Shown one piece after another: positions 53,457 through 64,000 of a stretch of 64,000 nucleotides of DNA. Position numbers and translations under genes: made by a program. A model generated the notes under the pieces. It did no database searches. It saw only the letters and a list, made by a program, of their open reading frames with translations, and was not told the origin of the DNA. Within the stretch, counting starts at the first letter, position 1, and each line of letters opens with the position of its first letter. Source of the stretch: Selaginella tamariscina (Eukaryota; Streptophyta; Lycopodiopsida; Selaginellales; Selaginellaceae); the NCBI GenBank assembly GCA_003024785.1, contig PUQB01000791.1:33163-97162 (forward strand). Reading direction: 5' to 3'.

Positions 53457-53540
53457 GGCGGGATTTATCCTGTCAAGAATTCAAAGTGACACAGAAGTGT
53501 GGCCAAGATGAATCCCACCACCAATTGTATTCATCCCACC
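53457..53540. repeat. Degenerate copies of the GGCGGGATTAATCCCGCC motif
   Basis: GGCGGGATTTATCCTGTC at 53457-53474 and the half sites GATGAATCCCACCACC and TATTCATCCCACC at about 53507-53540 resemble the palindrome of the two arrays. They lie about 0.5 kb beyond the stop of the DUF7869-type gene, so that gene has related sequence on both sides. Confidence 0.5.
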
Positions 53541-54059
53541 ATACAATCCTCTATGCAAGTTGTAACTAAAATGGGCATGGCTATAGTCCCATTTCCTAAT
53601 AATTAGCAATTTTAGCTATTTAATTAGCATTTTCTAATATTAAAGGAATATTCTTTAGAATATATGTTTGAAAAGAGAATATTCTTTAGAATATTCTATT
53701 TTGTATTCTACCCTTTAATAAATTATAGCATTCATTGAACAAAAATTAATAACATTATAAAAGTAGAATGTATTAAATTATATAATATATTGCCTAATAT
53801 AACAATTAAGGAAGAGCATAAGAGGTACATTATATAAATATTGATGTTGTTATTAAAATATTAATATTTAAATATAACATTATTAATTAAAAATTTGTAG
53901 TAGTAATAATATATATATAAAATCCTATAATAATATAGTCAATCTTCCATATCATTTTTTAAATTTATATAGTTAAGTATACAATTTGGTACTATTATTA
54001 AAGAGTTTATAATAATTATGAATATTAAATATATGATATTTTATAATTTTGTAATTGCT

Positions 54060-57000
54060 TTAAGCTTCAGAAAACATACATTCCCTTGCAGTTTTGTTAA
54101 TCGTGACTTTATCAACGCTTCTTGACATCCACCCATATCGAATGGATTTAACATTTATAAAACATGCTGGGTCTTTTTGATTGGGAGACCATGTTTTCTC
54201 TAGGCATCCATTATATCTTTCGCTCTCCTTCTCGTGTCGCCTTTTTTGTGGTTTGAACCATGCAACCTTAACAATACTATTTTTTGTGATTACTTCAGGT
54301 GTGTCGATAATTTGACCCATCCAAATAGGCTGATTATATGACGCATCTGGAGTAATGAGAACCATCATTAGTTTTTGAAGATCCTTGCAGCAATCAAAGT
54401 ATGCTTTAGGTTTTTGGTTCCTTTGTCCAACAAAGTGTGGGGTTTGCACTTCCACATCACTACTGGCTTCTATGTCGTCTATGCTCAGTGATGTCATTTC
54501 AATCTCCTCTCGCCACCTTGTTTTAGGCCAGAAAGGGTGTTGCAATTCTGTACTTGTGACAGTAGGCCCTTCCAACTCTCGAACAACAGTCTCCCAATAG
54601 TTGACCACATGCTTATATAGTTCTGAGTAACCAGTTGCCTTATCAGAATTCTTTGGCATCGATTTTTGAACCCATGCCACATATTTTTTGATGCCATCAA
54701 TAATAACCTCTTGTTCCTTGAGCTGGGCACTCAATGGAATAGGGGTCTGGTTGTCCTTCTGGGAAGTGGCTTTCCATCCTCTCCACTTTTGAAGAGCATT
54801 AAGCCTCTTTCGGTAACCACTCCTGCTCTGATGGCCGTAACTTGTACTGCATAATAGGTATACCATCTCGTATGGAGAAAAAGATTGTAGCGGCACAAGG
54901 TGACCAACTAAAGAATCACTCCCTTCTTTTATATACTCCTTGAGAAATTTTTTGAAGTCTGGCACCTCAGTCACAAGCAAAGCACAACTTTTTTTGGAGA
55001 TGCAATTTTCAAAAAGATTCATCATATGCGGTAAGGTAAGTGCACTTGTCCTTTTTGTAGAGTTGGAGACCTTGCTGAAGAACGCATCAATATCTTCATG
55101 AGTGTGACCAACCATAAGGAAACTGAGCGTGATTGTTTCAAACACACCTTTGGCAACAAGCATTGACAAGTATGCTAGCACATATCTAGAAAATAAAAGT
55201 AAGTATGAGCTTGAGAAACCCTTAAGTAAAATGATTTACCTATTTTTGTTCTCGCCTGCACAATTATCCATCTGTAAAAGCAAATGACGAGGAAGCTTAT
55301 TTGATGTTGAGGACACATGTACACTATTTGAGCTAGATCCCTCCACTGAACCTGAACTCTCAACAGGGCCATCTGTTTTTTGTGCAGGTTGCTGACAATG
55401 CCTCTCATATTCCCAAGTAGCCTCAAGTGCAGACGTGTTCATGAGAGCATTATGTAAAGGTTGAAGGTGTTGTTTCTTCACTTTGAGATCACTGATAGGA
55501 CTTGTCTGTGAGTGGGCTTCAAGGTTTCTGAAACACATGGCTAACGACCCAATAGTGAAATTGGAGTCGCTAGACCAATGTGGAAGTGAAAAGTGTCCAT
55601 ATGACTCACAACCGTGTCCATGTGTTAGCACACCTGTCAAAGAAATCGGAAGTTTCATGACATTTCCAAGGCACTTTGGTGTTGCAAAGAGCTTTGGAAT
55701 GCTGGTCTTTGAATGATCCATCTTGTCATGGATCAAGCACAGGTACTCTGATGGGCGTGACACAGAAAGCATGCGGTGTGCATAGTACTGAGACCGGCAA
55801 GTTTGTTGTGCAATCATGTGGGCCTCCATCTTCCTTTGAATGGTAGTGATCTCCACCAAGGTTTTTGCACAAGCCTCTGCAGCCTTCAATGATGTACAAG
55901 TGTCACACTTAGAAAAGCTAGAGTGTTTTGCAATCTCCACATCCTTAAAATGAGTATTCCATATGTTGTTGAAGGTACCAGTGCAGATTGCTTGGAGCCC
56001 CATCAAACTGAGGCACTTGTTCACATGTTCACACAGTTTCAATTGAGTGTAGATTGAAGGTAAAACCTTGAGATTTTCCCTGACCCTGCATTTTGTGGTT
56101 CGGCATTTGTGAGGCATCCTGTCTGCATTTGCTTCCACAAAAGCCTTGAGTATCTCTATGGCTGCCATGATGTGAGAGCGGGTTTTGACCAAGCAGTGTT
56201 CCCATGAACTGAGGTTCGCGCTCCATCTAGCCACTCATCCCTCCGACGGTAGAACGTGGTCTTTGGGATCCCGTATATACTGTACCAAGCTTTGAAGCAG
56301 ATGGCCACCTTATTAAATACCATGGATGTACTCTGATAACCTGTGTCCGAGGCCATTCCATCAATACACCCAGTTAGTGCAGCATATACAAACTCATGCC
56401 TTTGCTTTTGGGTGAGCATACGAAAGACATGTCTACATTGGGTAATTTCATTCCGGTCTGCCATCTGACAACACTTCTTCTTGCAACAGTCAATCGTGGA
56501 AATGCTCGTAACACTTTCGGAAGATGTAGGATCCATCTTTACCCTCTTGCTGAAACTTGCAGGGGAAGATCTACAACCCATGAATCGCCTTTTTCTTACA
56601 ATAGGACCAATGCAAGGAACCTCTTCAAATATGAGTTGTTCTTCCGGGTTGTTATTATTGAAATCCAACCCAGAATATGTTGAACCATCTTGCCGTCTTA
56701 ATTCAGATGTTCGCCACCTCACGAGGGATCCAGGATACAATGTGCCATTAGGTGAAACCTCTGTCACAACTACACCCACGAAGTCGGACCCTAGTTTCTC
56801 TTCTGACACTGCTTCCATTGGATTTATAGCTGTGATGATGCCTCTTCCGACTTCAATCTCACGAAGAAAGAGAATCACCTCATCCATCACAGCAGGCAAG
56901 CCATCATCTGGTAAACTCGTGCTACTATTTGTTTGTGACTCTGCATATTCTGTGTCAGCCTTGACTTCATCCAAATTCCACAATACAGGAGAACCCTCCT

Positions 57001-57181
57001 CAAATTCCATTCCCAGAACCTCAACATGCTTGTAAATGGTGTTCACCCATACGTACACACAAGATCCTTGGGCAATATTGTGACATGATGCATTATTATC
57101 TCGAACTTCCACAGTTCCAGTGCCAACTATCTCGTTGTTCCGAAGAAGACATACTTTATCTCCAGTATTAAACATATTGTC
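54060..57181 (-). CDS. DUF7869-type transposase-like protein
   Basis: Large protein (about 1000 residues). The exon at 57181-55240 and the last exon 55185-54060 join at ENKNR-YVLAYL. The 57181 end is preceded by TGTGCAG, so an upstream exon is likely; the first internal ATG is at 57175. The N-terminal part starts DNMFNTGDKVCLLRNNEIVG. A middle part has RRRDEWLDGARTSVHGNT and RSHIMAAIEILKAFVEANAD, followed by RMPHK. Cys pairs (CRTTKC; SKCDTC) suggest a zinc site. The core has LLQMDNCAGENKNRYVLAYL and FLMVGHTHEDIDAFFSKVS, the hallmark of DUF7869-type proteins, with conserved Asp/Glu/His that could bind metal. One C is missing at the run 56180-56182. Long, nearly uninterrupted exons contrast with the host genes here. 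A mobile or recently mobile origin is likely; the enzyme activity is unproven. Confidence 0.75.
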
Positions 57182-57328
57182 CTGCACATAAATAATTGTA
57201 TTATTTATGATATCTGTTTATGCAATATTTCTAAGAAATCTGAATTACGGTTACTTAATAATATGCATATGCAATAATACATAATTATGTTTAGAGATAA
57301 TATCTCATGTTTGATTAATACAACTGAT
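57182..57328. other. Upstream intron or promoter of the DUF7869-type gene
   Basis: AT-rich 147 bp between the splice acceptor of the gene and the first palindrome. No exon could be recognised in it. Confidence 0.4.
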
Positions 57329-58150
57329 GGGCGGGATTAATCCCGCCCACGAATCCCTCCGACGAGGAACGGTCGGCGGGATTAATCCCGCCGCCGACTC
57401 AACCCCTTCGGAGAGAGTCGGCGGGATTAATCCCGCCTTGGACTCCCTCCGACAAGGAAGAGCCGGCGGGATTAATCCCGCCGCCTCTTCCTCCTCGGGG
57501 GGAGTCCGGCGGGATTAATCCGCCGCCGACTCAACCCTTCGGGGAGAGTCGGCGGATTAATCCCGCCGACTCCCTCCGACGGAAGAGTCCGGCGGGATTA
57601 ATCCCGCCGACTCTCTCCGACGAGGAAGAGTCCGGCGGGATTAATCCCGCCGACTCTCCTCGCCGGGGAGTCGGCGGGATTAATCCCGCCGGACTCCCTT
57701 CCTCGTCGGAGGAAGAGGCGGCGGGATTAATCCCGCCGGCTCTTCCTTGTCGGAGGGAGTCCAAGGCGGGATTAATCCCGCCCACAATTCTTACGACGGG
57801 GAATGGGTGGCGGGATTAAACCCGCACATAACTCTCTCCAAAACTATGATTTCAAAGAGATCTCGGGATAAATCCTGTCCCCAAATCTTTAAAACAGGAA
57901 GTGGTGGCGAGATTAATCCCGCCACCCCTTCCCTGCCTCCTAAAATGGTTGGCGGGATTAATCCCGCCGACAACTCTTTCTAATAAATTCTGGTAACTCT
58001 TCATCAGTTGAGAAGGTTATCGACGGGATTAATCCCGCCACTCTTTTTCAGTGGCGGAGAAGCATTGCCCGGGAGATGGTGGCGGGATTAATCCCGCCAC
58101 TTCTTCAAAGAGGCGAAAAAGAAATGGCCGGATTAATCCCGCCGCCCCGG
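57329..58150. repeat. Palindrome array 1 (GGCGGGATTAATCCCGCC)
   Basis: About 17 copies of an 18-bp perfect palindrome or close variants, spaced roughly 40-45 bp in the first 450 bp and more loosely after 57800. Spacers are GC-rich and shared (for example GACTCCCTCCGACAAGGAAG). The spacers at 57418-57512 recur as the reverse complement at 57689-57784, so the array is itself an inverted repeat centred near 57.60 kb. Reading through any copy gives GGINPA or AGLIPP on both strands. Cores decay toward the right end. It lies directly 5' of the DUF7869-type gene. Confidence 0.95.
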
Positions 58151-58860
58151 TTAACCTAGAATATTAAGTTAAAAGGATATTTAAACGTGATAAATCCCTA
58201 ACGGAATATATTATAATCCTAATGCATTTCTAAACCCCTAAATTGTAATTTTAAGAGAGAATGTAAGAGAGTGAATCTTAATAAGTATTTTTAAATTTGT
58301 TTATAATACTTACTTGTAAACAGCACTGAAGGCGCCGTGCTTTCCTATAAAGAATAGCACCCAATTTAATCTCGCTCCTGAGATGATCACTATGAAGAAA
58401 AAAGAAGATCTAAAGAGTGAAAAATACAGAAATGAAGAAACCCTTGCCGGAGAAAGAACCAGATCTGAATTTGAGTGGGAAATTAAATGCATTTTCAAAT
58501 TTACATGTCAGACCGACAATACATATGTCAGAAATTCAAATTTTTTAAAAAAACAGAAAATAAAATTTAAGATGAGTTGACACAAATATCCGACACTCTG
58601 ACATATATACTCTCCAGTTCCAATGAGTATTTTAAAATTGCATTTAATGTTATTCAAGTGATTCAAGCTGTTTAATATTACGAAATTTTAGACTATATTC
58701 TACATTCTTAGTATTCAAGTATATTTATATTATATATATATATATATAAATATATACTTATACAATAAATAAATTGATATATTATTATGTATCATTTAAA
58801 ATATATTCATAGTCTGTTTATTATTATTATTTTCTTAATTACTCGAGTATTTAGTTTTCA
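58151..58860. other. AT-rich spacer, no gene seen
   Basis: No conserved frame. A short (AT)n lies near 58730-58750. Confidence 0.5.
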
Positions 58861-59510
58861 TTTCCTAGTATCAATGGGATATTCTTTAATATTTTATTAA
58901 TATTTGAAGAATATTCTAATATTAAACCTGATTATCATAATTAAATTAGTCTTGTTCTTAATTATTGCAGTAATTATTCTACATTTGTATATATTAATGG
59001 GATTTTCTCAATTAATTTGTTATTATTTCAAGAATATTCATGTGTTAAACCTTATTATCAATATTAAATTAATACACACTATGAACATATTTTAAATTAT
59101 ACATAATAATACATCATTTTATCTAATATATAGTCATATATAGTTTTAATAATATATATATTAATATCATTTCCTTAATTACTTGAGTAATTAATCTTCT
59201 TTATATTAATGGGATATTCTTTATTATTTTCTTATTATTCCAAGAATATTCCAATATTAAACATGATTATGATAATTAATTTAGTTAATTATTTGAGTAC
59301 TTAATTTACATTTGTATATATTAATGGGATTTTCTCAATTAATTTCTTATTATTTCAAGAATATTTCAATGTTAAACCTTTTTATCAATATTAAATTAAT
59401 ATATATTATTAAAACTATATATGGCTATATATTAGATAAAATCATATATTATTATGTATAATTTAAAATATGTTCCTAGTGTGTTTATTAATTTTATTTT
59501 CTTAATTATT
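58861..59510. repeat. AT-rich tandem repeat, unit about 330 bp, with an inverted segment
   Basis: TTAATGGGATTTTCTCAATT and its flanks occur at about 58995 and 59323, and ATGGGATATTCTTTA at about 58876 and 59210, an offset of roughly 330 bp. Separately, about 65 bases around 59083-59148 recur as the reverse complement at about 59410-59475. Noncoding. Confidence 0.7.
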
Positions 59511-59747
59511 CGATGTTTGTTTTGCACACATATATAAACACAATCATAAATTTACACACGCATTACAAGAACTTACAAAAACACATATGCACACACATGC
59601 ACAACCCTAAACCAAACTGAAGAAATAGTTGCTTCTTTATTGAAAACATCATGTTCAACGCATGTATGATATATGTACTCAATCTGTGTGACTGTATGTA
59701 ACACATTGAATTTACATGTGTAATATTTATATTAAGCTTGTTGGGAG

Positions 59748-59782
59748 CAAACCCTAAACCCTAAACCCTAAACCCTAATATG
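59748..59782. repeat. Interstitial telomere repeat (CCCTAAA)n
   Basis: Four tandem copies of the plant telomere heptamer in an internal position. A second run of about four copies lies at 60218-60246. Confidence 0.9.
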
Positions 59783-59879
59783 TAACACAATGAATTTACT
59801 CATGTAATATGTATGTATGTCTGTGTGTATACACGTGTGCATGTATATATGTGTACTCTGTATGTATATATGTGTACTT

Positions 59880-60420
59880 TCTGTCTTCTCTCATACATAC
59901 ACACCATGCATGATCCATGTTAATATGTACTGTCTCTCTTCTCTCAAACATACACACCATGCATGATCTATAATATGTACTCGGTCTCTCTAATATTATG
60001 TACTAATATGTATGTATGTCTGTGTGTATAATACACACCATGCATGATCCATATTAATATGTACTGTCTCTCTTCTCTCATATACTATGTATGTATATCT
60101 GTGTATAATATGTGTAAGTATATATGTGTACTAATATATGCAATGTGTACAAAAATAATTTTTCAACACTCTCTCTTCTCTCATACATACACACCATGCA
60201 TGATCCATCCTAAATCCAAAACCCTAAACCCTAAACCCTAAACCCATGTAATATGTGTGTATGTCTGTGTGTATACACGTGTGTATGTATATATTATGTG
60301 TATTAATATATGCAATGTGTATGTATGTATTGATACACATGAAACTTTAACACTCTCATGGACACACACATGTTAAATCCCTGCATGATTTATATTTTTG
60401 AGGTGTATGTGATACACCCA
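59880..60420. repeat. Satellite-like repeats around ACACACCATGCATGATC
   Basis: The phrase CATACACACCATGCATGATC, or a close form, recurs near 59897, 59951, 60026 and 60188. It is interleaved with CTCTCTTCTCTCA, TATGTATGTCTGTGTGTATA and the second telomere-repeat run (60218-60246). It looks like a complex subtelomere-type satellite. Noncoding. Confidence 0.75.
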
Positions 60421-60895
60421 CGCACACGCACGCGCTAATAATATAATGAAAGAATATTCGTTTAGGGCGAATCTATATTTTATTCTTTTTAGGGTTTAAG
60501 TATATTCTCAGAAGGAATATTCTATTAGGGTTGATATATATATTTAATTCCTTTAGGGTTTAGGTATATTCTTAGGGTTTCAAGAGGCGGCGGCTGTGAA
60601 ATCGGCGGCGGCGGCTGTGCACACAGGTGAGATCTGTGTGTGTGTGTGTATGTATATATGTATAGGAGTGTGCGTATAATTTTATTTTAGTTTTATCTCT
60701 CGCACACACACGCACACTCCTGTGTATGTATATGTGTGTGTGGGTGTGTTTGTTTATCTGTATGATTTATTTGTTTCGCTCACACACGCATACACACGAT
60801 ATACATATACACATATATATATATATACCTATATACATATATACATACATATATTATGTGTACCAGTATCTGTAAATTTTTTTTATTGATCTTGC

Positions 60896-60952
<57 letters not shown>

Positions 60953-61016
60953 TATGTGTACCAGTATCTGTAAATTTTTTTTATTGATCTATCTCTCCCA
61001 CACACACGCGCACTGC

Positions 61017-61058
<42 letters not shown>

Positions 61059-61780
61059 ATACACATATATTATATATATATATAATCAATGCATATTAAC
61101 AAATAGTATACAACACTAGTTTATATATATGCTTATATATTCATATGGGTTATATATCTATATACACACATATATATATGTGTGTGTTTTTCTGTATAAT
61201 TTTATTTATTTATTAGTTTTATCTCTCGCACACACACGCACACTCCTGTGTATGTATATGTGTGTGTGTGTGTTTGTTTATCTGTATGATTTTATTTGTT
61301 TCGCTCACACACGCATACACACAATATACATATACACATATATATATATACCTATATACATATATACATACATACAACACTAGTTTATATATATGCTTAT
61401 ATATTCACAGACTCTCTCTCTTTCTCTATAGATTATATATCTATATACACACATATATATGTGTGTGTTTATCTGTATAATTTTATTTATTTATTAGTTT
61501 TATCTTTCGCACACACACGCACACTCCTGTGTATATATATATGTGTGTGTGTGTGTTTGTTTATCTGTATGATTTTATTTGTTTCGCTCACACGCATACA
61601 CACGATATACATATACACACATATATATACCTATGTACACACATATATTAGGTGTACCAGTACTGTATAATTTATTTATTTATCTATCTCTTGCACACAC
61701 ACGTACACTCCTATACATACATACATACATACATATATATACACACACATATATATATGTGTGTGTTTTTATCTCGCTAA
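60421..61780. repeat. CA/TG and TATATA satellite, repeated blocks
   Basis: A block built from TTAGTTTTATCTCTCGCACA, then ACGCACACTCCTGTGTATG and TGTTTATCTGTATGATT, occurs near 60690, 61218, 61496 and, diverged, 61680. GTGTACCAGTATCTGTAAAT occurs near 60857 and 60955. Pure CA tracts are at about 60901-60932 and 61021-61056. A small GC-rich GGCGGCGGCGGC stretch is near 60588-60620. The apparent frames here are microsatellite artefacts. Confidence 0.85.
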
Positions 61781-61787
61781 GCCCCTC

Positions 61788-63385
61788 GAGCGGCGGGATT
61801 AATCCCGCCGCTATATGGGGCCATGGCGGCGGGATTAATCCCGCCGCCGAGGCCCTTCAGGCATGGGTGAGCGGCGGGATTAATCCCGCCGCCGAGGCCC
61901 TTCACGCAGGCTATGGGCGGCGGGATTAATCCCGCCGCTCTACGACAAACCGAAGAGCGGCGGGATTAATCCCGCCGCCCATGGCCTGCGTGAGGGGCCT
62001 CGGCGGCGGGATTAATCCCGCCGCTCATCCATGCCCTGCGCGGAATGCGGCGGGATTTATCTCGCCGGCAATGGCCTGTGTGAAGGTTCTAATGGGCGGG
62101 ATTAATCCCGCCGGATTCCGCGCAGGGCATTTACAGGGAATGGGCGGCGGGATTAATCCCGCCGCCGAGGCCCCTCACGCAGGCCATGGGCGGCGGGATT
62201 AATCCCGCCGCTCTTCGGTTTGTCGTAGAGCGGCGGGATTAATCCCGCCGCCCAGGGAATTCACGCAGGACATGAACGCCGGGATTAATCCGGCCCCACG
62301 CTCATGCCCTTCGCGGAGGGCGGCGGGATTAATCCCGCCGTTCATGTCCTGTGTGAATTCCCTGGGCGGCGGGATTAATCCCGCCCCCCCCATCCCTGTT
62401 CAAAAATGCCGCAGCCAATATATATGTGTGAGCGCATGATTTACGAGAGGGCGGCGGGATTAGCCTCCGAACCTTCATTACCCGGTGGCGAGATTAATCT
62501 CCGAACCTTCATTACCCCATTGGTATGTTGAATCAATCCCGACTAACTCTGTCTGAGACGGAGAAGGTTTACAAAATACCAATGGAGGGAACCGAGAAGG
62601 GTGGTGGGATTAATTTCACCATCCCTTACATGGTGGGCGGGATTAATCCCGCCGCGTACGCATGCCCTGCGCGGAATCGGGCGGGATTTATCCCGCCGCC
62701 ATTGGCCTGCCTGAAGGGCCTAGGCGGCGGATTAATCCCGCAAGATTTCGCACAGGGCATTGGCGTTCGGCGGGATTAATCCCGCCGACTAAGGCCCGAG
62801 TGAAGGGCCTGGGAGGCGGGATTAATCCCGCCGGACGCCAATTCCCTGCTCGGAATCGGGGGGATTAATCCCGCCGCCATTGGCCTGTCTGAAGTGCCTA
62901 GGCGGCGGGATTAATCCCGCCCGATTCCGCGAGGGAATTGGCGTCCGGCGGATTAATCCCGCCGCATAGGGACCGAGTGAAGCCCATAGGGCGGCGGGCG
63001 GCGGATTAATCCCGCCGAGTCTTCAATGCCTGTTGGAGGAATGAATCCCGCCACCCTTCCTTTGTTTTCTCCATTGGTGAGTCGGACCAATCCCAAACGT
63101 TTCTGTCTGAGACGTAGAAGGTTTTCAACATACCAATGGAGAGAATGGGAAGGGTGGGGAAATTCATTTAACCATCACTTACATGGTGGGCGAGATTAAT
63201 CCCGCCTCCTTTCTGGAGTCACTGAAGGGGTGTGAGAAATAAATCCTGCCCAGTTCTCTCTGAGACCGAGAAGGGTGGCAAGATTAATTCCGCACTCCCG
63301 TTCAAGGCCTCCAGAAAGGTGGCGAGATTAATCCCGCCCACTCTTTCAGGAGGCATTGAAGGGGTGGCGAGATTAATTTTCCATG
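61788..63385. repeat. Palindrome array 2 (GGCGGGATTAATCCCGCC)
   Basis: About 25 or more copies of the same 18-bp palindrome as array 1, spaced about 35-50 bp. Copies are near perfect at 61790-62390 and 62636-63020 and decay after about 63030. The spacers differ from array 1 (GAGGCCC, TTCACGCAGG, GCCCTGCGCGGAA). Spacers at 61915-62043 recur as the reverse complement at 62115-62253, giving a large inverted repeat centred near 62.08 kb. The array lies directly 5' of the partial plus-strand gene at 63676. Confidence 0.95.
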
Positions 63386-63487
63386 TGAATATATATGTGT
63401 ATTAGTATATATAAGTTGCATATCTCATTTTATTTACTTTTATCATCTTATCATAATATTTCGAGTAAAAGCTAGGAATCTATGTAA

Positions 63488-63572
63488 AACTGTCCAGAGC
63501 TCACATTTGTGGTTTCTAAAACGAAATGTTATCTTTCTTTTGCACTAACACAAATGTGAGCTTCGGACAGTT
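63488..63572 (+). ncRNA. miRNA-precursor-like hairpin (candidate)
   Basis: Arms 63488-63511 and 63549-63572 are 24 bases each and pair along their whole length, except for two adjacent mismatches (AGA against GAA). The loop is 37 bases. Short complementary stretches (GTAA / TTAC) flank the base. It lies between array 2 and the exon at 63676, perhaps in an intron or leader of that gene. It could equally be a tiny inverted-repeat element. Confidence 0.4.
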
Positions 63573-63675
63573 AATTACGTCTACTTCTCTCTGTGTATTA
63601 TTTTTGTATATTCGGGTTTATACAAGTGTGTGTGCGTTTTTATATAATTTATATTTATAGTGTATTATTTTGCAG

Positions 63676-64000
63676 AAGGACGATTTGATCAAACAAGGAG
63701 ATCGAGTCATTAGTATGGAGTCGTCGTCAAATTCTGGGTAAGAATTAAAATAAAATCTGTTATACTCGGATACTTGAACTAATCATTTTTGTATTCAGAT
63801 GTGGAATTGAAGTGACATTAAAGACAAGAGCAGGAGAAGAGATGGGCAGGGGGATTTGGAATCAACTTGGCCATATTTTAAGATAAATGGGAAGCGCATT
63901 GGAGCAACCATGGTTGCTGTCAAATTAACCTCTGTCACATCTCATGGACAAGCAAAACAATGGAAAGTAGATTCGCTAGTCAAGCACCCGAAAGCAGGCT
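63676..64000 (+). CDS. Start of a second DUF7869-type family gene (partial)
   Basis: Runs off the window. The first visible exon (63676-63737, after TTTTGCAG) encodes KDDLIKQGDRVISMESSSNS. The next starts at 63799 with CGIEVTLKTRAGEE and, after one missing G in the run 63849-63853, continues ESTWPYFKINGKRIGATMVA and WKVDSLVKHPKAG. The first exon begins after a splice acceptor just as in the gene ending at 54060. It aligns with it by eye: DNMFNTGDKV against DDLIKQGDRV, GTGTVEV against GCGIEVT, LWNLDEV against QWKVDSL. Relationship is inferred from this short stretch only. No start codon is visible in the exon; an upstream exon is expected. Confidence 0.5.

Follow-up and report, generated by a model that had tools for sequence, protein, structure and literature searches.

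The window analysed here, a 64,000-nucleotide stretch of the Selaginella tamariscina genome (contig C1161:33163-97162, the contig's last base being window position 64000), contains the right part of a large DNA transposon. Two divergent genes and two arrays of the 18-bp palindrome GGCGGGATTAATCCCGCC (hereafter the core) are parts of this one element, which has terminal inverted repeats (TIRs) and 4-bp target-site duplications (TSDs), and of which the genome contains roughly a thousand copies. What sets it apart is that each of the two genes carries, in what is probably its first intron, a long array of one perfect 18-bp palindrome. The initial annotation had taken each gene with its own array for a selfish unit. 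The selfish character stands, the unit being instead one transposon of ~14 kb with both genes and both arrays.

Copies aligned in one orientation have in common gene 2, array B, an AT-rich and microsatellite middle of ~3.0-3.7 kb, array A and gene 1. As homology is continuous across all five, they form a single element, and two separate gene-plus-array units are ruled out by the unbroken homology between copies across the whole element. The order of its parts is TIR, gene 2 (divergent), array B, AT-rich and microsatellite middle, array A, gene 1, TIR. Homology between copies stops at ~53550-53553 of the window on the gene-1 side and at ~5055 of locus L044 on the gene-2 side. The termini are inverted repeats, ATGCACGTTGTAACTAAAGTGGGCATG on the left and ATGCAAGTTGTAACTAAAATGGGCATG on the right, with the consensus ATGCA[C/A]GTTGTAACTAAA[A/G]TGGGCATG (also written ATGCA[C/A]GTTGTAAC). 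The element is ~13.6-15 kb long: a complete copy covered by L044, L039 and L045 measures 13,641 bp, and most full copies have 13.7-15.1 kb between paired ends. By eye, at least 16 head-to-head pairs of gene 1 and gene 2, 8.5-9.3 kb apart, were found among the matches listed, with an exception on contig C738, where the two genes are on the same strand and 9.6 kb apart. The parts present in the window are the following.

53553..64000, no strand assigned: right part of the DNA transposon, delimited by the homology limit and the contig end; the left ~4-5 kb lie beyond the contig end.
53553..53579, plus strand: right terminal inverted repeat ATGCAAGTTGTAACTAAAATGGGCATG, the common end of the copies, with at least 907 exact TGCAAGTTGTAACTAAAATGGGC ends genome-wide.
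54060..55185, minus strand: last exon of gene 1, encoding the C-terminal part of DUF7869 with the motif GHTHEDID (PF25273, E 2e-24; acceptor from the sequence).
55186..55239, minus strand: gene 1 intron of 54 bp, GT..AG, joining DNCAGENKN to RYVLAYL, with a lone in-frame stop at its start (from the sequence).
55240..57181, minus strand: main exon of gene 1, encoding an N-terminal TNP-like module and the first half of DUF7869; frameshifted in the window copy.
57182..58313, minus strand: probable first intron of gene 1, with array A (splice signals in the sequence).
57330..58143, no strand assigned: array A of GGCGGGATTAATCCCGCC, mode spacing 44-46 bp.
58314..60626, no strand assigned: AT-rich middle with microsatellites and AAACCCT repeats, presumed to be the divergent promoter region.
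60627..63675, plus strand: probable first intron of gene 2, with array B (splice signals in the sequence).
61792..63338, no strand assigned: array B, with the same core and other spacers (matches in the window).
63676..64000, plus strand: first coding exons of gene 2, TNP-like module CGIEVTLKTRAGEEMGRG.., cut at the contig end; longer copies are L044/L039, L033 and L081.

The ends were counted in the assembly (300.7 Mb, 1391 contigs). Exact left ends number at least 959 and exact right ends at least 907; these are lower bounds, as the search patterns for ends and junctions allowed no C at the first place and required exact neighbours. For the TSDs, the 100 listed left ends were paired with 90 of the 100 listed right ends (through contig C224, where the list of left ends stops) at a distance of 8-17 kb. 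This gave 36 pairs, one end being used in two pairs in three contigs. Identical 4-bp flanks were found in 17 of the 36, against a mean of 1.11 and a maximum of 5 in 2000 shuffles, and duplications of 2, 3, 6, 7 or 8 bp were not above the shuffled range for these paired ends. None of the other 19 pairs has a 4-bp match, one of them agreeing over 5 bp; these 19 may reflect nesting, mispairing or the loss of one end. Two short copies below the pairing limit also have a 4-bp TSD, L094 (4.0 kb, CTGT) and L095 (7.2 kb, AAAA), and L096 (8.4 kb) is one of the 36 paired copies. The common TIRs and the 4-bp duplication thus answer a question left by the initial annotation, whether full gene copies have shared ends and TSDs. 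Rearranged copies exist as well: L040 has a right-type end at its gene-2 side, and L040 and L041 (C1:2054000-2076000) are derivatives with some cores spaced 29 bp.

The two arrays reported in the initial annotation are real, the core having 43 matches in the window (≤3 mismatches) against 0 in 100 shuffles; as it had also stated, they have a common core and different spacers. The matches fall in array A (57330-58143) and array B (61792-63338), with one weak match at 53457. The weak cores that the initial annotation noted past the 3' end of gene 1 are outside the element, which ends at 53553. They consist of the core-like sequences GGCGGGATTTATCCTGTC and GATGAATCCCACC in 53457-53552, just beyond the right end, and the 313-bp flank containing them is nearly single-copy, with its own place and two partial matches.

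Array A lies ~150 bp from the acceptor at 57181, after which gene 1 starts, and array B ~340 bp from the acceptor at 63676, where gene 2 begins; both gene starts agree with those first proposed. Donor and acceptor signals place the arrays in the probable first introns of their genes. Among ten stretches searched, the gene 1 donor GTTTACAA/GTAAGTATT was present in nine (the tenth stops short of the donor site) and the gene 1 acceptor motif in eight. The gene 2 acceptor motif TTGCAG was likewise present in eight, and the gene 2 donor region TTTCAAGAGGCGGCGG..CACAG/GTGAGAT in three (the window, L036 and L042). The AAACCCT repeats of the presumed promoter region, which are telomere-like or telo-box-like, lie at 59749-59778 and 60209-60245 of the window, and at least three in tandem were found in three of the ten stretches (the window, L036 and L042). 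A bacterial promoter scan of the middle, with 28 sites against 26.5 in shuffles, was uninformative. A short hairpin, ACTGTCC..GAGCTCACATTTGTG / CACAAATGTGAGCT..GGACAGT, was seen by eye at 63487-63575, in the gene 2 intron between array B and the acceptor.

Genome-wide, the exact core occurs 27,128 times, and its reversed, uncomplemented control 0 times. The 100 of these that were listed are on contig C1 in 11 clusters, each within an element copy, a truncated copy or a derivative. Arrays also stand 5' of other DUF7869-type genes, as the initial annotation had led one to expect. In a sample of 20 gene-1 copies (every sixth row of the best 121), 17 have 12-18 cores (≤3 mismatches) directly upstream, ending ~150 bp before the acceptor. 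Of the remaining three, one is all N, L066 has its array and gene start deleted, with the deletion endpoint inside its first core, and in L079 homology ends ~100 bp past the array. Six further top-ranked loci of the gene-1 profile include four with the array and two deletion copies without it (L057 and L058). A core adjoins the gene-1-side junction in 99 of 100 listed cases, among at least 947 copies of the stretch past the last core; by eye, 86 of these 99 cores are exact (one a base closer) and 13 are changed. The sole exception among the 100 is L094 (C213:116900-121050).

The core is kept while the spacers diverge between subfamilies. Arrays A and B have one core and unrelated spacers, and the cores are evenly spaced, 110 of 155 intervals measuring 44-46 bp. 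The 337 spacers of array A in 29 copies were grouped into families. Subfamily 1 (23 copies) has repeated spacer blocks, one block being inverted in most copies; in subfamily 2 (6 copies) the middle spacers have diverged, several edge spacers are still alike, and the core is that of subfamily 1. Across the 29 copies of both subfamilies, pairwise identity is 0.978 for the last core, 0.796 for its spacer and 0.935 for the next 100 bp. Bases 8-10, at the dyad centre, are invariant in 438 cores (≤3 mismatches), 294 of them exact. Ongoing flipping of spacers was considered and rejected, the inverted block of array A being at one position in all copies that have it. A search of IMG/VR for the core returned one contig with one palindrome, which was taken as chance.

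The product of gene 1 is probably the transposase. The gene, on the minus strand, is of the DUF7869 type as initially annotated (Pfam PF25273, E 2e-24 and 3e-13 on two open reading frames), and consists of a long exon, a 54-bp intron that falls within DUF7869, and a last exon. The window copy has a frameshift between the open reading frames 56156-57187 and 55236-56234; other copies elsewhere in the genome have a 660-amino-acid open frame. Nothing besides DUF7869 was above the cut-off in a Pfam scan of gene 1, and a Transposase_23-like match (E 0.14) is weak and below it. D-containing motifs were noted by eye in DUF7869, and an RNase H-like DDE/D fold was sought by single-sequence AlphaFold2 prediction, with a mean predicted local distance difference test score (pLDDT) of 35. 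A first look for the middle exon gave 5977 candidates, the best 121 of which are ≥95% identical in protein, and the gene-1 family profile gave 4250 candidates in the host genome and none in 14 control genomes. No relatives of gene 1 or gene 2 were confirmed in IMG/VR, and DUF7869 is not named in the literature searched, the coverage of which was partial.

Only the first ~0.3 kb of gene 2, which lies on the plus strand, is in the window, because the contig ends at 64000. The exon past the acceptor in longer copies (L033, L081 and L044/L039) matches this cut-off gene. The longer copies have a TNP-like module, with a 651-codon open frame in L081, and a C-terminal NIF (FCP1-like) phosphatase domain (E 4.7e-11); no DUF7869 was found in their domain scans. 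Gene 2 had been taken for a relative of gene 1, and the first reading was made to depend on this kinship. The two genes proved largely unrelated, with a short and weak N-terminal module of ~37 residues remaining common to both (BLASTP E 2.5e-5; hhalign 27.95, where the highest of 60 shuffles scored 22.95). Gene 2, whose transcription runs away from gene 1, would encode an accessory protein. Its motif YYIISGQHTITAAQRL resembles ParB: hhalign against 12 phage ParB-like proteins gave a weak match, with a probability of 16% over 18 residues and a score of 25.8, whereas none of 60 shuffles exceeded 9, the reversed sequence scored 13.5 and the highest of the other controls 17.8. Pfam gave no ParB domain in gene 2, and no relatives of its ParB-like part were found in phages; in the genome, this 197-amino-acid part has 4944 candidates, of which 150 were scored. 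A methyltransferase, suggested by a motif I-like stretch, was rejected, the hhalign score of 17.9 against two phage ParB-methyltransferases falling short of the 21.3 reached among 40 shuffles; Pfam, NCBIfam and PHROGs gave no methyltransferase match in gene 2, which may still contain a remote one. The long gene 2 reading frame contains a lone core-like sequence, ~1.75 kb past array B (L081:2259 and equivalents in several copies).

The simplest reading of these palindromes is as binding sites of a dimeric protein. The likeliest explanation, at about even odds, is that the core serves as the operator or assembly site of a protein encoded by the element. Such a protein would bind each palindrome as a dimer and coat the arrays. 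Once bound, it would set the transcription of both divergent genes, in a feedback control, and it may help to bring the element together, as TNPA does on Spm/En through its repeats. The location of the arrays in both probable first introns, 5.1 and 3.7 kb from the ends, fits control of expression better than end recognition. We infer the introns, the promoter, the identity of the binding protein and the effect of binding from the sequence. If a protein of the element does bind the cores, the element would offer a simple system for studying how a transposon keeps count of its copies and controls them, and DUF7869 would gain a testable role.

Several observations weigh against binding by an element-encoded protein. 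Both arrays have an internal position, ~5.1 kb and ~3.7 kb from the element ends; known transposase-bound repeats are subterminal. L066 and L079 are sampled gene-1 copies without an array, and L094 has TIRs and the CTGT duplication, yet no core (≤3 mismatches). The gene 2 donor was seen in one subfamily only, the catalytic fold sought in DUF7869 reached only the low pLDDT given above, and the ParB likeness of gene 2 is weak. In young copies the last core is not exact in 13 of 99 cases, against 3 of 100 for the adjacent 17-bp intron stretch; one further junction copy, the 14th, has an intact core and lacks the next base. The last core thus being more variable than the adjacent intron, recent purifying selection is not demonstrated, and the cores may owe part of their sameness to homogenisation between units.

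Taken further, homogenisation would make the arrays GC-rich satellite-like repeats, alike through slippage, template switching or unequal exchange and with no function of their own. The variable length of the arrays between copies, the duplicated spacer blocks, one of them inverted, and a core that changes no slower than the adjacent intron among young copies are in line with this. The cores may also be break-prone: deletion endpoints fall inside a core in three of six derivatives (L094, L095 and L066/L097 among those examined), or 3 of 12 endpoints with ~0.6 expected by a hand estimate, in a small and partly picked sample. A break hot-spot at the last core was not shown, 1 of 100 listed junctions being broken against 0 of 100 in the neighbouring control. 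Homogenisation should, however, carry the spacers too, and these differ between units, arrays and subfamilies while the core is kept. Some edge spacers are alike between subfamilies, yet two arrays with unrelated spacers occupy equivalent places in two genes, and a purely satellite-like nature is unlikely. It is similarly doubtful that the palindrome binds a host transcription factor and was taken over by the element to serve as an enhancer array in its introns. The arrays are at the 5' side of both genes, enhancers are frequent in plant introns near the gene start, and the half TCCCGCC is E2F-like; the half-site AATCCCGCC deviates, however, from the E2F consensus TTTSSCGC, and all 100 listed cores are within the element family.

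The cores could instead act as RNA, forming 7-bp hairpins in the intron transcript, while the longer duplexes of inverted blocks alter splicing or feed small-RNA silencing. The location in probable introns and the long inverted arms (for example 78 nucleotides at 99% and 169 nucleotides at 88% complementarity) suit such a role. The most constant bases (8-10, of TTAA) are central and would be the loop, and the six copies of the second subfamily showed no inverted block in their array A; an RNA role is very unlikely. Binding by an element-encoded protein could also take a ParB-parS-like form, in which the gene 2 protein, a ParB-like clamp with an FCP1-like phosphatase, would load on the intron arrays of its own site, spread, and set the state of RNA polymerase II over the element. 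This eukaryotic counterpart is highly speculative and hardly to be expected; if true, it would be a switch, encoded by the element, that determines when some thousand copies are active.

The bacterial ParB-parS system resembles the element in having multiple perfect palindromes near a gene with a ParB-like motif. It differs in that the present case is a eukaryotic transposon with many evenly spaced sites, and the ParB match of gene 2 is weak (16%). CACTA/EnSpm elements (Spm, Tam1) have, like this one, many copies of a short motif, bound there by TNPA or TNP1 and here probably by a protein, and a GC-rich array close to a gene's 5' end; the weak Transposase_23-like match of gene 1 (E 0.14) is a further likeness. 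In contrast to them, the present element lacks CACTA termini, its TSD is 4 bp and not 3 bp, and its arrays, at 5.1 kb and 3.7 kb from the ends, have an internal and not a subterminal position.

Sola1 elements have a 4-bp target-site duplication, as does the present element (17 of 36 pairs). The latter is a large two-gene TIR transposon of the cut-and-paste type, possibly Sola-like, a tentative assignment made from the layout. Duplications of 4 bp are also given for Sola2 (PMC3627910). The literature searched, with partial coverage, held no description of a layout with palindrome arrays in the first introns of both genes. In the literature searched, the nearest layout is that of the giant Sola1-1_Ec32 of Ectocarpus, a Sola1 element in which a gene on the opposite strand encodes a ParB-like and methyltransferase protein; such proteins have been suggested to bind and modify their own element (PMC12477816). 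Gene 2 differs in its NIF phosphatase domain, no methyltransferase having been found in it and its ParB likeness being weak, and the part of that description consulted mentions no palindrome arrays, of which the present element has two (PMC12477816). The two elements are alike, as far as that source goes, in being large (21.5 kb against ~14 kb) and in carrying a second gene that runs opposite to the transposase gene.

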